Below are positions 39,514 to 47,904 of a stretch of DNA of 64,000 nucleotides, piece by piece (position 1 is the stretch's first letter; each line of letters starts with the position of its first letter). The notes under the pieces were generated by a model. It did no database searches and was not told the origin of the DNA. It saw only the letters and a list, made by a program, of their open reading frames with translations. Source of the DNA: an uncultured Prevotella sp. (lineage in GTDB: Bacteria > Bacteroidota > Bacteroidia > Bacteroidales > Bacteroidaceae); NCBI GenBank assembly GCA_905234845.1, contig CAJOIW010000007.1, forward strand, positions 23,445 through 87,444, read 5' to 3'. Both the position numbers and the translations under genes were made by a program.

Positions 39514-41950
39514 CTACAGATTGTCGAAATTGATTTCTTCTTCGCGGAGGCCCGATTGACGGTCGGGGTTATAGGGGTCGTCGTCGGGGAGTTCTCGGCG
39601 GCGACGCACTTGGCGTACGACGGGGTTGCCCTCCTCATCGAACACAATTTCGTCTTCATAGTAGTAGAGACTGTCCATGTCAGTCGAATCATTGTTCTCG
39701 GGCGTGTATCCTTCGCAGGTGTAGAGGTCTGGTGTAATGTCGCTATCTTTTGGTCCGAGGAAGCGTGCATGGTATTGTCGGAAGTTCCGGTCGGCGAGCA
39801 TCTGGCGGAGGAATTGTCCGCAGATGGGTAATGCGGTGCGTGCGCCTTGTCCGAGGGCTCCCGTACGGAAGTGTATGCTTCGGTATTCTCCTCCTACCCA
39901 TGCGCCCACAACGAGTCGCGGGCTTACGCCCATGAACCATCCGTCACTATTGTTGTTGGTGGTTCCTGTCTTGCCTCCGAAGGTGGTGTCATCGTAGTCG
40001 CCCACATATTCCCATAATCCCGCTGAGGTTCCTCCGGGCTCACGTAGTCCTCCGAGGAGCATTTGTTGCATGAAGAATGCGCTTTTGTAGCTGATGGCCT
40101 GCTCGCCATCGGTGGGCGCGGTGTACACCTCGCGTCCTTCTCGGTCGACAATTCTCGTGACAAGTACGGGAGCCTGATGTCGTCCGTCGTTGGCTACGGT
40201 GCAATAGGCGCTGACCATCTCAAGCAGGTTGACGTCGCTTGAGCCAAGTGCGAGCGATGGTGTCTCCTCGAGCGGGCTCTCTATGCCCATGGCATAGGCG
40301 GTCTCGGCGATGCGTTTCACGCCCATTTCCTGTCCAATCCTTACGGCTACGGAGTTGACGCTTCTTGCAAACGCATTCTTTAACGGGAGTGAGTCACCTG
40401 AGAATGATCCGTTGGCGTTGGTCGGCACCCACATTTCCTCTTGTTGTTTTTTGGCATTCCACACGGGGAAGGAGATAGGCTCGTCGCGTCGTTTATCGCA
40501 GGGGGTGAGCCCTTGGTTCATAGCTTCAGTATAGACGTTGTCGCATGGCCGTCACCTTATCATATTCCCACGAGTTCCAGTCAATGTCGCCTACCCATGC
40601 TTTCACATGTCCCGTCTGTGGTTCCATGGCCACGAAGGCGCAATGCATAAAGCGCACCATGTAGCGAATGGAGTCGAGGGTCGACATCTCACGTTCGATG
40701 GTTCCTTGGTCGTAACTGAAGAGTTTTACCTTGTGTGGTCGGTTAAGCGCGTTGCGTATGGAGTCGGGTTGGTTAGGATAGCGTGCAGAGAGTTCCTTGT
40801 AGAGTGGCAGGTGCTGGGCTATTCCCTCGATGAAGCCTTGTATGGGTTGTCCGTTCTCGTCGGTCCATGGGTCACGTCCGCTCCAATGCTCGTCGAAACT
40901 TTGTTGTATCTGTTTCATTTGCTTTCGGGCGGCTTGCTCGGCATAGCGCTGCAGACGTGTGTCGAGGGGAGTGTATATCTTATAGCCTTGCGTCTCCAGT
41001 TCCTGTCGTGAGAATTGTTTCTCCAGGTGTTTGACGATGGCTTCCCTGAAATAGTTGGCCGTGCCGTTGTCCTTGGTCTCCGAGGTGAAATGTAGTTGCA
41101 TGGGTTGTTGGCAGAGGCTGTCGAACTCCATGCGGTTGAGGTCGTCGTGCTCGAGCATGTTTGCCAGTACGGTGTTGCGTCGTTTAAGGCTTCGCTCTGG
41201 GTTTACAAGTGGGTTGAAGAGGGTAGTGCCTTTGAGCATTCCCACGAGCGTGGCCACCTGCTCAGTAGTCAGTTCCGAGGGTGTGGTGTCGAAATAGGTT
41301 TTGCTGGCGGTCTTGATGCCGTAGGCGTTCGATCCGAAGTCGACGGTGTTGGCGTACATGGTGAGTATTTGCTGTTTGTCGTAGAGCAGTTCGAGTTTAG
41401 TGGCGATTATCCATTCCTTGCTTTTCATGATAATCATGCGCAGCCCTGGTATTTGTCCGAGCAAGCCTGTGGAGTATTGGGTACGCACGCGGAACATATT
41501 CTTCGCCAGTTGCTGGGTGATGGTCGATGCGCCTCGTGCTTCTCGGTGTACGGCCGCGTCTTTCAATGCGGCGATCAGTCCTTGGAAGTCGATGCCCATG
41601 TGTCGGTAGTAGCGCTCGTCCTCGGTGTCGATGAGTGCTTTCCAGAACATGGGGTTCACCTCCTCATACTTTACTGGTATACGGTTCTCATTGAAGTATT
41701 TTCCGATGATTTTTCCGTCGGCGCTATAGATTTCGGAGGCTACGGGGGTATCGGGTTTCATGATTTGCGAGAAGCCTGGCGATTTGCCGAATAGCCATAG
41801 GAAGTTCATGTCTACGAGTATAAGCCATGTGATGAGGCTGATGATGCCCGACGTGGCGAGCACGGCCAGTCGTGTATACCATTTTCGTCCGCGGTATAGC
41901 GAGATATACCACGAGCACATGTTACCTATTTTGCGGAAGAACCATTTCAT
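39514..41950 (-). pseudogene. Penicillin-binding protein 1A, broken at the transpeptidase SxxK motif
   Basis: Two adjacent frames make one class A PBP. The upstream frame (41950 to 40526) has a transmembrane anchor and the complete GT51 glycosyltransferase: TEDERYYRHMGIDFQGL, RGASTITQQLAKNMF. It then enters the transpeptidase domain (MEPQTGHVKAWVGDIDW, DKVTAMRQ) and stops a few codons later. The downstream frame (continuing to 39514) resumes at VYTEAMNQGLTPCD and has the SVN and GGKTGTT motifs. Family members read RQPGSxFKPFVY at this point, so about 23 bp encoding the catalytic Ser-x-x-Lys are missing at 40536-40538, which also shifts the frame. It could be a true deletion or an assembly error. 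Overlaps miaA by 29 bp. Confidence 0.85.
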
Positions 41951-45508: not shown

Positions 45509-45539
45509 TTGCAAATGTCAGAAATAGTTTGTACCTTTG
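45509..45539 (+). promoter_or_regulatory. Promoter of the CRISPR/TnpB-like locus
   Basis: TTG at 45509-45511, a 20-bp spacer and TACCTTTG at 45532-45539. It is the only clear promoter upstream of the array. Transcription from about 45546 would pass through the scaffold RNA, the array and the nuclease gene without an intervening terminator. Confidence 0.75.
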
Positions 45540-45545
45540 CGCCAT

Positions 45546-45731
45546 AAGGTGTTGTCAGGCCTTGCGGACGTTAAGCTAATGCCGGTGGGCGGCTGGTTCG
45601 ACAAACGATTTAGCAGAATTAGGAATGCAAAAAATAACAGTCAGTTCCCTCGGGAATGGGAGTATAGAGCAAGTCTTAGAGTATGCAAATCATGACTTTT
45701 TTATTGATTTTCAGGTGATTAGACATTATAG
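45546..45731 (+). ncRNA. Putative tracrRNA/scaffold RNA of the CRISPR/TnpB-like system
   Basis: About 185 nt of non-coding sequence lie between the promoter and the first repeat. Near its 3' end, GATTTTCAGGTGATTAG (45706-45722) is 13/17 identical to the reverse complement of repeat positions TTAGTCACCCAAAAATC. Counting G-U pairs, it can pair at 15 of 17 positions. Colinear with it, TCATGAC (45690-45696) can pair with GTCATTGA at the repeat's 3' end with one bulge. A UUCC/GGAA hairpin (45645-45656) lies further upstream. Because R1 begins 10 nt later, the anti-repeat and R1 can fold in cis as a natural single guide. The role is inferred from this complementarity. Confidence 0.6.
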
Positions 45732-46160
45732 AGTGTTAGTCACCCAAAAATCTAGGTCATTGACAGGTGTACTTTAACAAAGGCGACTTACAGAAAGAGT
45801 GTTAGTCACCCAAAAATCTAGGTCATTGACAGGGTTTTCTTTTCTTCCTTTTTTGGCTCTTCCAGTGTTAGTCACCCAAAAATCTAGGTCATTGACAGGG
45901 ATTGCCGTTGTACGTCCAGCCGAAGTTGAGTGTTAGTCACCCAAAAATCTAGGTCATTGACAGGATTACGGTGTCTTTTGTGTCAGCAGGTCAAGTGTTA
46001 GTCACCCAAAAATCTAGGTCATTGACAGGGTGTTGGAGGCCGACGAGCAGTCGCCCGTAGTGTTGGTCACCCAAAAATCTAGGTCATTGACAGGTTTTCA
46101 TCGGAAGAACAGACATCTTTAGTGGTGTTAATCACCCCAAAATCTAGGTCATTGAAATTT
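45732..46160 (+). CRISPR. CRISPR array, seven repeats and six spacers
   Basis: Direct repeats start (first G) at 45733, 45799, 45865, 45930, 45995, 46060 and 46125, a 65-66 bp period. The repeat is 36 bp if the preceding A is counted, opening AGTGTTAGTCACCC and closing GGTCATTGACAGG. The first five are identical; the sixth has one change (GTTGGT); the seventh is degenerate (GTGTTAATCACCCC and ending ATTGAAAT). Decay toward the nuclease end puts the leader side at 45540-45730 and predicts plus-strand transcription. Spacers are 29-31 bp and all different. GTG/CAC at the 5' end and GTC/GAC at the 3' end can form small hairpins. The last repeat ends only a few bases before the nuclease ATG at 46162. 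Confidence 0.95.
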
Positions 46161-46161
46161 A

Positions 46162-47742
46162 ATGAAAGAAGTATTTGTATTGGAACTACCTTTGCAAGTT
46201 GAGAAATATCAAGCCGATATTCTTGACAAGCGCTATGAGCAACTTCGCCAGTTGTATAACTACGTGCAGGGTAAGTTGCTCAGACAATACAAATATTTCG
46301 AGCAAATGAAGGAGTTTCAGAATTGCAAAACCCTCAGAGATAAAAAAGATTTCTTCAGAAATCATCCTTTCCATATTAATGGAATTTTAGGCCAAGACAA
46401 GGAATTGCTAAACATTACATTCGATGAATATGGCATTCAAGGTTTCATCGAAAAACTGGTTCAGAAATCTGCTGGTTCGGATGTAACCTATGCCGACCTC
46501 GGCTTGAATACTTACATTTTTGATTATTTGTCTTCCGGCGTTTGGGCGGCATGGGAGAAAAAACTGTATAACTTTCGTACCAAGCGAATCTCATTCAAGA
46601 GGCATGGCGAACTCGACTCTTTCTCGAGTAGGAGAAAGGTTGCACGTGGAAAGATTTATTTCTCTGGTATGGAGTTGCATCTGGAGAGGATGGAACTTGC
46701 TATCAAGTTGAATGGCAAGGTGGGTAAAAACGCAAAATTCATTACTTTACCTATTTTGCATAACCCAAAACATGCCGACTATGAGATGATGGCTCTGAAA
46801 GATGGTCTTGATGGCGTGAAAGTGCTCAAGGTTGTCCGCCGTTTGGTGAGGGGACGTTACAAGTATTATCTGCAAATAAGTATTGAAGGCGAGAAACCGC
46901 AAAAAGGCAGAGCACTGGGCAAGGGTAATGTGGGTATTGATTTGGGGCCAACCACTATTGCTATTTCCGGAGATAACATTGTCAGCATCGATAAGTTGGC
47001 TTCAAAATGCGACAACATAGAAAAGGAAATCGCTAAGTTGAACAGGAAGATAGACCGTAGCCGACGAGCCAACAATCCGGAAAACTTCAATGAGGACGGA
47101 ACCATAAAACGGGGCATTCGACTCGTATGGAATGACTCCAATCGCTATCGGGCGCTTTTGAAGGAAAAGGCAGAGTTACAGCGCAAACAGGCTGCCATCA
47201 GAAAACAGCAACACATTGACCGAGCCAACTCTTTGTTGAAAGAGGGTGAAACGTTTATCGTAGAGAACAATAAAATAAGCAGTTGGACGGCAAGGGCAAA
47301 AGAAACCAAAGTGAATGAGAAAACTGGCAAAATTCAGAAGAATAAACGCTTTGGTAAATCGGTTGCCAATCATGCGCCTGCCATGTTTGTGACAATCTTG
47401 GAGAATAAAGTAAAATCATTAGGCGGTAAAGTCGTGAAAGTTGAAACTCAGAACGCGGCAAGCCAATATGATTTTACTAATGACACATTCACGAAACATG
47501 AGCTTAAGGAGCGTAGCATAACATTATCAAATGGCGATGTTCATCAACGCGACATGTTGGCAGCCTTCAATCTGCAACATCTGAAATATGATGAGGATGA
47601 TTTGAAACAATATGACCGCGATGCAATGAAACGTGACTATGAGCGTTTCTGCCAGTTAGAGCGGGAAGAGATAGAACGCTACAAGAGCAAAGAAAAACAA
47701 GATGACCACTCAACCATTGCCGCATCGGAAATGATGCTTTGA
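46162..47742 (+). CDS. Compact TnpB/Cas12-like RuvC nuclease, CRISPR-associated
   Basis: A 526-aa protein of the TnpB/Cas12 lineage. The N-terminal half (about 1-250) is the helical and WED-like part, with YYLQISIEG leading into RuvC. The split RuvC carries D260 (GIDLG, 258-262), E368 (FIVENN, 365-370) and D464 (QRDMLAAFN, 462-470), so the catalytic triad is complete. A coiled bridge spans about 275-350. The target-nucleic-acid-binding insert before D464 (ASQYDFTNDTFTKHELKERS) has lost all zinc-ribbon cysteines; the protein has only three Cys. It follows the array directly, with no tnpA, cas1, cas2 or transposon ends. It is best viewed as a TnpB-derived type V effector (V-U or TranC-like). 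The subtype is unassigned. Confidence 0.88.
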   Translation: MKEVFVLELPLQVEKYQADILDKRYEQLRQLYNYVQGKLLRQYKYFEQMKEFQNCKTLRDKKDFFRNHPFHINGILGQDKELLNITFDEYGIQGFIEKLVQKSAGSDVTYADLGLNTYIFDYLSSGVWAAWEKKLYNFRTKRISFKRHGELDSFSSRRKVARGKIYFSGMELHLERMELAIKLNGKVGKNAKFITLPILHNPKHADYEMMALKDGLDGVKVLKVVRRLVRGRYKYYLQISIEGEKPQKGRALGKGNVGIDLGPTTIAISGDNIVSIDKLASKCDNIEKEIAKLNRKIDRSRRANNPENFNEDGTIKRGIRLVWNDSNRYRALLKEKAELQRKQAAIRKQQHIDRANSLLKEGETFIVENNKISSWTARAKETKVNEKTGKIQKNKRFGKSVANHAPAMFVTILENKVKSLGGKVVKVETQNAASQYDFTNDTFTKHELKERSITLSNGDVHQRDMLAAFNLQHLKYDEDDLKQYDRDAMKRDYERFCQLEREEIERYKSKEKQDDHSTIAASEMML

Positions 47743-47766
47743 CGGTAGGCTGATAGTTGGCTACCT

Positions 47767-47803
47767 AAAAGACGGTCTTTCGGATTACGAAAGACCGTCT
47801 TTT
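47767..47803. terminator. Terminator of the TnpB-like gene
   Basis: A perfect 16-bp inverted repeat, AAAAGACGGTCTTTCG and its complement, with a GATTA loop, starts 24 bp after the stop codon. It is made of two 22-bp-period AAAGACnGTCTTT units facing each other. Confidence 0.8.
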
Positions 47804-47904
47804 GGGAGAAATTCCCTAGGGAATTATATGCGAAATGCCGTCTTTCGGAATAAATTCTCTAGGGAATTTTTCGGGAAAGATTGTCTTTGGGGACAAAATT
47901 CTCG
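47768..47904. repeat. Alternating AAAGACnGTCTTT and AATTCYCTAGGGAATT array
   Basis: Cores start at 47768, 47790, 47833 and 47876 (AAA-N7-TTT type). They are interleaved with CTAG-centred palindromes at 47809 (AATTCCCTAGGGAATT) and 47852 and a partial one at about 47896. Spacing alternates 19 and 24 bp (43 bp per pair). It fills the gap between the nuclease and luxS. Confidence 0.65.

Follow-up and report, generated by a model that had tools for sequence, protein, structure and literature searches.

Organisation of the locus

The window, that is, the whole 64,000-nt stretch of DNA analysed here, carries on its forward strand a compact unit in which a promoter-like motif, a leader, a CRISPR array and the gene for a TnpB-like RuvC protein follow one another:

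45509..45539, + strand: Bacteroidota-type promoter-like motif (TTG at 45509-45511, 20 nt, then TACCTTTG at 45532-45539)
45546..45732, + strand: scaffold or tracrRNA-like leader, 187 nt (from conservation, covariation and homology to the downstream scaffolds of relatives)
45552..45557, + strand: 5' scaffold strand UUGUCA; predicted partner, repeat 3' end UGACAG (45761-45766)
45692..45698, + strand: anti-repeat strand ATGACTT; predicted partner, repeat AGGTCAT (45754-45760 in repeat 1)
45733..46159, + strand: CRISPR array, seven repeats with six spacers between them
45733-45767, 45799-45833, 45865-45899, 45930-45964, + strand: repeats 1-4
45995-46029, 46060-46094, 46125-46159, + strand: repeats 5-7 (last degenerate)
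46162..47742, + strand: TnpB-like RuvC effector, 526 aa
46939-46941, 47263-47265, 47551-47553, + strand: codons of catalytic residues D260, E368 and D464

The array consists of a 35-nt repeat occurring seven times at a spacing of 65-66 nt, with six different spacers of 30-31 nt; the seventh repeat is degenerate, and 2 nt separate it from the ATG of the effector. All seven matches to the repeat core found in the window's assembly (up to three mismatches allowed) lie within this array. No open reading frame (ORF) of at least 80 aa overlaps the leader at 45546-45732, and the three catalytic residues of the effector are invariant in 46 of 46 aligned family members. The TAnnTTTG motif, which we take to be the Bacteroidota promoter consensus, starts 14-17 nt 5' of the scaffold in 16 of the 17 orthologous loci having that stretch, window locus counted, and is absent only from L014; a generic sigma-70 scan found no promoter at the window motif. 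The elements named in the original prediction (a promoter 5' of the array, a gene-free leader, seven repeats with six different spacers, and a 526-aa RuvC protein with D260, E368 and D464) are thus all present, the promoter in the form of this conserved Bacteroidota-type motif.

The same prediction held that cas1, cas2, cas4 and tnpA are missing nearby, and none was found among the 16 ORFs scanned between 33.1 and 59.2 kb of the window, a set that leaves out smaller ORFs and overlapping frames taken as shadows, and in which one ORF had no Pfam match. No cas1 was detected in the window's assembly, which is 82% complete. Flanking genes differ between loci, each being common to at most three of the 34 loci compared (many with short flanks), and by eye, a few close pairs excepted, conservation ends at the promoter on one side (17 loci compared, one of them cut short) and at the stop codon on the other (21 loci). 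The stretch from promoter to stop codon is therefore the conserved unit, and the unshared flanking genes and lack of conservation outside it disfavour a recent transposon. The luxS side of the window insertion site was located in 17 of 59 other relatives; in the nine relatives inspected, the MFS gene was absent within 1.5 kb of that side, so that an empty insertion site is not defined.

Two further features of the window lie outside the unit. Just 3' of the effector, at 47764-47900, is a palindromic intergenic element with ten more partial matches elsewhere in this genome, some of them overlapping across the two strands, which is probably a member of a dispersed repeat family. At 39514-41950, the transglycosylase and transpeptidase domains of one apparent penicillin-binding protein fall in two adjacent ORFs, which looks like a frameshift or an assembly error.

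Conservation of the unit among orthologues

A scan of genome contigs recovered 23 loci, titled Prevotella, Prevotellaceae, Bacteroidaceae or Bacteroidales. Contig-scan and genome-search matches, with duplicates removed, gave 22 distinct clade loci with usable upstream DNA; L031 and L032, in which the gene is a fragment at the end of its contig, were left out of this architecture count. The array lies directly upstream of the effector in all 22, and no downstream array was detected in any of them. Orthologues therefore keep the array, the check that had been proposed for the locus, and the finding of one array-then-gene order in all 22 loci rules out a chance tandem repeat. Eighteen loci have the whole leader; in L003, L015 and L028 the contig ends within it.

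Two members of the clade depart from the pattern. In L016 (1870-2080) the scaffold is 5'-truncated though the contig continues, with array and effector frame present, reflecting either a deletion or an assembly break. L013 (10001-10159) has an in-frame stop early in the effector and keeps its array; it was left out of the tree and kept in the array count.

Carriers are sparse. Counting the window's own genome, genus-level searches found them in 9 of 200 and in 17 of 398 genomes (overlapping sets, with different queries and limits), and a family-level search in 8 of 399 genomes, in 5 of 30 genera; in the order (393 genomes) and the phylum (296 genomes) the own genome was the only carrier. Two other genera of the same family had carriers in 4 of 45 and 6 of 121 genomes. 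Relatives of the effector fall into 1,072 protein clusters at E<=0.001, and several named carrier records are rumen, omasum or colon assemblies.

A structured leader complementary to the repeat

The leader is near-invariant in the 18 distinct loci in which it is complete (mean column identity 91%). A nested structure on these 18 leader-repeat sequences contains 40 predicted pairs with 99.0% of cells paired, versus 24-53% for slid control structures, over which it is favoured by having been drawn by hand from the same 18 sequences. Six pairs changed on both sides, in 16 such cells, and 0 of 500 shuffles scored as high, a test that related sequences can nevertheless beat. The leader thus behaves like a structured RNA with respect to covariation, in keeping with its predicted role as a scaffold. 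A single-sequence fold of the window leader is mildly low in energy (z -1.72; 9 of 200 shuffles as good). Assignment of the leader to an Rfam family was rejected, the four matches being sub-threshold microRNA matches that all lie 3' of the gene.

Scaffold and repeat are predicted to pair in the anti-repeat helix (helix 7; scaffold columns 151-155 with repeat columns 217-221), where all five counted pairs vary, 90 of 90 cells are paired and two pairs changed on both sides. When repeats were swapped among 15 loci, hand-chosen to cover both layouts, the own pairings summed to -182.8 kcal/mol versus -143.8 +/- 8.7 kcal/mol for swapped pairings, a difference reached in 0 of 20,000 permutations; the window's own anti-repeat pairing ranked only 10th of the 15. 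A second helix beside the guide, UUGUCA/UGACAG, is paired in 18 of 18 sequences, is invariant within the clade and was not significant in the swap test (0.27); its 5' strand is missing in L016. The aligned loci show scaffold-repeat complementarity that covaries.

Other layouts among relatives and the direction of change

An array was identified in 33 of 34 distinct family loci, in one of these about 6 kb from the effector. It lies 3' of the effector in 11 distant relatives, ten of which, distinct loci with 37-59% identity, carry it just downstream. In L035, L036 and L037, a scaffold homologous to the window leader sits between the stop codon and the array (nhmmer 4e-8, 3.8e-7 and 6.6e-7, respectively). 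In L007, L038 and L039, the effector frame continues across the scaffold to a stop codon within the first repeat, giving ORFs of 605-615 aa. The scaffold match is weak in L007 and L038 (nhmmer 0.002 and 0.004), and nhmmer detected no scaffold homology in L039, L008, L009, L060 or L061. Duplex prediction gave a run of 8-12 anti-repeat pairs in L008, L009 and L060 and no convincing run in L061.

The passage of the nuclease frame through the guide-scaffold region, at 3193-3342 of L007 and at the 3' ends of L038 and L039, is an observation in its own right, as one stretch of DNA may here double as protein code and scaffold RNA.

The relative nearest to the upstream clade, L059 (wider context L083), is borne by a plasmid-like element with resolvase, ParA-type and DnaB-type genes. 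At L083 4302-11964 the effector is followed by genes for 1,234-aa and 744-aa products and then by a scaffold (3e-15 against the window leader), two repeats and one spacer; the two products, without Pfam matches, are possible partner proteins. A reading of L059 as an array-less sister is rejected, since the wider context places this scaffold and its mini-array about 6 kb downstream.

No array was found in the 19.9-kb stretch of L040. Read by eye, this array-less member (L040 1300-1500, and L084) has a single scaffold- or reRNA-like element on its 3' side and has probably reverted to one guide. Among viral carriers, a narrow query found no relative, and a wider one found four distant relatives. 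Just upstream of three of them, on the viral contigs L042, L043 and L044, is an ORF read by eye as an IS200-like TnpA; these look like IS605-type elements carried by viral contigs, and L043 and L044 are identical over the stretch compared.

Seven IS605-type TnpBs, taken from other phyla and from phages, served to root the tree; next to three of them an IS200-like or tnpA gene is annotated. The tree includes six rows without known context, and L043, being partial, was left out of the trees. The Bacteroidaceae family forms one clade against this outgroup (support 100/100), so that the protein falls outside the array-less IS605 TnpBs tested. The independent origin suggested in the original prediction accordingly stands relative to these seven outgroups, a sample short of all known Cas12 and TranC clades. 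The deepest split within the family sets downstream-array rows on one side (87/88), and the upstream layout is one clade, with support of 98/95 with 21 rows and 88/84 with 6 rows in the rooted tree; the deeper nodes of the family have moderate support (82-98), with long branches in places. L040 falls within a group of array-bearing rows and therefore probably lost its array, two array gains (2 changes) being a conceivable alternative to this loss. Most likely the upstream order is derived and arose by rearrangement, because relatives carry the array, and several also the homologous scaffold, downstream of the gene.

Spacers, targets and function

The 151 spacers from 32 loci are all distinct strings, and 148 of them are 30 or 31 nt long; a spacer of L002 holding an N was dropped. 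In 31 of the 32 loci the array has only 2-11 repeats. The other, L024 (7329-9933), has 40, the first slightly unlike the rest, with the trailing G of its spacers taken as part of a 36-nt repeat; its spacers 23 and 37 differ by one trailing base only, and 22 nt are common to the overlapping spacers 1 and 4. Repeats within an array are near-identical, and the last ones decay, degenerate repeats being found mostly at the array end far from the scaffold.

Spacer 4 of L024 matches a viral contig in 30 of 30 positions over its first 30 nt, and spacer 1 in 29 of 30 at an overlapping site. The ORF that holds these protospacers matches a PHROG major tail protein and has a portal gene nearby; the two sites have no common 5' motif, and therefore no PAM is defined. 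A match to a mobile element is seen for two spacers of one orthologue and for none of the window's own. The viral-contig scans used six 20-21-mers (four window spacers and two L024 pieces) and returned one match, with 0 matches for the four of six window spacers scanned as 20-mers (2 and 6 left out). All six window spacers were without a match in phage BLAST. BLAST of 101 of the 151 spacers against phages (62 joined spacers plus the L024 array of 39) and of 39 of the 151 against plasmids gave three weak matches (E 0.7-0.8), which are not credible.

A cas1 gene was present in 10 of 30 carrier genomes, one as a short broken match. In nine it is on another contig than the effector, and in G429 it lies on the same contig about 1.7 Mb off. 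The genome of the L024 locus (G1271) has a cas1 match. With cas1 in these ten carriers, including the genome of the 40-repeat array, adaptation in trans is possible.

The unit order and its sequence conservation, the covarying complementarity of scaffold and repeat, the catalytic residues, the diversity of spacers and one phage-matching orthologue array directly support the view that the locus is a compact CRISPR unit; we regard it as highly probable that it is such a unit, likely a stand-alone type V defence in which a scaffold-repeat guide would direct the nuclease to phage DNA. A working RNA-guided binder with a mainly non-immune role, in gene regulation or plasmid/transposon competition, with the array supplying regulatory guides, would agree with the location of L083 beside resolvase, ParA-type and DnaB-type genes on a plasmid-like element, with the lack of adaptation genes among scanned neighbours and with the shortness of nearly all arrays. 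It is nonetheless improbable, as the spacer strings all differ between loci, the two L024 spacers match a phage tail gene at overlapping sites and the three RuvC residues are invariant throughout the aligned family.

The array could also be a relic and the nuclease an ordinary TnpB that takes a single guide from the scaffold, first repeat and first spacer, with later spacers unused. Scaffold and first repeat are indeed contiguous, as in a reRNA, and the array-less L040 has, by eye, a single reRNA-like 3' element. Against this stand internal repeats that are near-identical while the last ones decay, the retention of 40 repeats in L024 with its overlapping phage spacers at positions 1 and 4, flanks that vary by locus and the lack of a transposase among the 16 scanned window neighbours, which together make a relic very unlikely.

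If the unit is a CRISPR defence, a single transcript would start at the promoter, cover scaffold and array, perhaps extend into the effector, and be cut into scaffold and repeat-spacer units. The scaffold would then pair with each repeat via the anti-repeat helix, and perhaps via the second helix beside the guide, rebuilding the shape of a TnpB reRNA, and the loaded effector would cut double-stranded DNA matching the spacer. New spacers may enter at the scaffold end, with adaptation proteins acting in trans. The family would descend from an IS200/IS605-type TnpB, its repeats presumably being copies of the 3' end of the downstream reRNA, and the scaffold-array block may later have moved upstream once to give the window order.

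The step from a TnpB with a single guide to a CRISPR system with many is usually deduced by comparing distant end points. In this case, several arrangements coexist in a single protein family within one bacterial family. There is perhaps an even chance that this is an undescribed type V family, so far seen only in Bacteroidaceae/Prevotellaceae, that records the TnpB-to-CRISPR transition: with the scaffold in frame and the stop in the first repeat; with scaffold and array just downstream; with both past a block of three genes in a plasmid-like element; and, last, with both upstream, the scaffold-array pair being a portable module kept matched by compensatory base changes. With a matching scaffold-array block kept at different places around the nuclease gene, the relatives preserve in nature the steps by which a transposon enzyme probably turned into a CRISPR system. 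Since several arrangements persist and the scaffold-repeat complementarity can be read from compensatory changes, the order of events is testable by swapping parts between relatives. The small size of the effector (~525 aa) and its many relatives also make it a candidate compact RNA-guided nuclease.

Comparison with known systems

As in type V systems, all 22 usable loci of the window clade pair one RuvC effector with a neighbouring CRISPR array. For the type V adaptation module, no cas1 was detected in the window's assembly (82% complete); the 2025 classification reports this module in only a subset of type V subtypes (PMC12669027). The same source puts the number of independent TnpB-to-CRISPR events inferred so far at ~50, and this kind of association is therefore already known (PMC12669027); 'Prevotella' has 0 occurrences in its main text. 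Titles and abstracts in the literature gave no description of the Bacteroidaceae family, a search whose scope did not include the TnpB census, the 2025 subtype paper or the TranC papers. The suggestion that the system is little-described in Bacteroidota fits this search and falls short of proof, and there is a real chance that the family is already listed, without description, in a published TnpB census.

Among the families listed in the fold comparison, the effector is nearest to TnpB and then to Cas12f, and it has the TnpB fold with the RuvC D-E-D residues. In contrast to IS200/IS605 TnpB with its reRNA (omegaRNA), it scores 73.6 bits with the guided_TnpB model, below the NCBIfam cut-off of 100 bits; no tnpA occurs among the 16 scanned neighbours of the window locus (33-59 kb); and the unit has a CRISPR array, with scaffold and repeat split. 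The guide RNA of TnpB lies at the 3' end of its gene, whereas in all 22 loci of the window clade the scaffold and array precede the gene, an order unlike that of typical TnpB, as had been claimed.

Likeness to other compact effectors is partial. Cas12f works as a dimer on one guide; the window effector matches Cas12f (V-F) over residues 224-471 only, not full length, and the guided_TnpB model is stronger (E 1.8e-20), while other family members match different models among Cas12f and Cas12u. The best PDB sequence match is Cas12n (RdCas12n, PDB 9j09; E 0.001, profile E 1.1e-8), and its sequence match covers only the C-terminal half. The V-U2 C2c8 model (NF038192) is matched by 11 of 46 family members, the window protein itself not being among them at E<=0.001.

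TranC systems combine a split tracrRNA-like scaffold, a CRISPR array and a TnpB-like effector. The sequence match of the window effector to LaTranC (PDB 9jfo/9jfq) is weak (profile E 0.026). In architecture and covariation, the window family with its predicted scaffold RNA fits this general definition of TranC, a comparison made with the definition alone.
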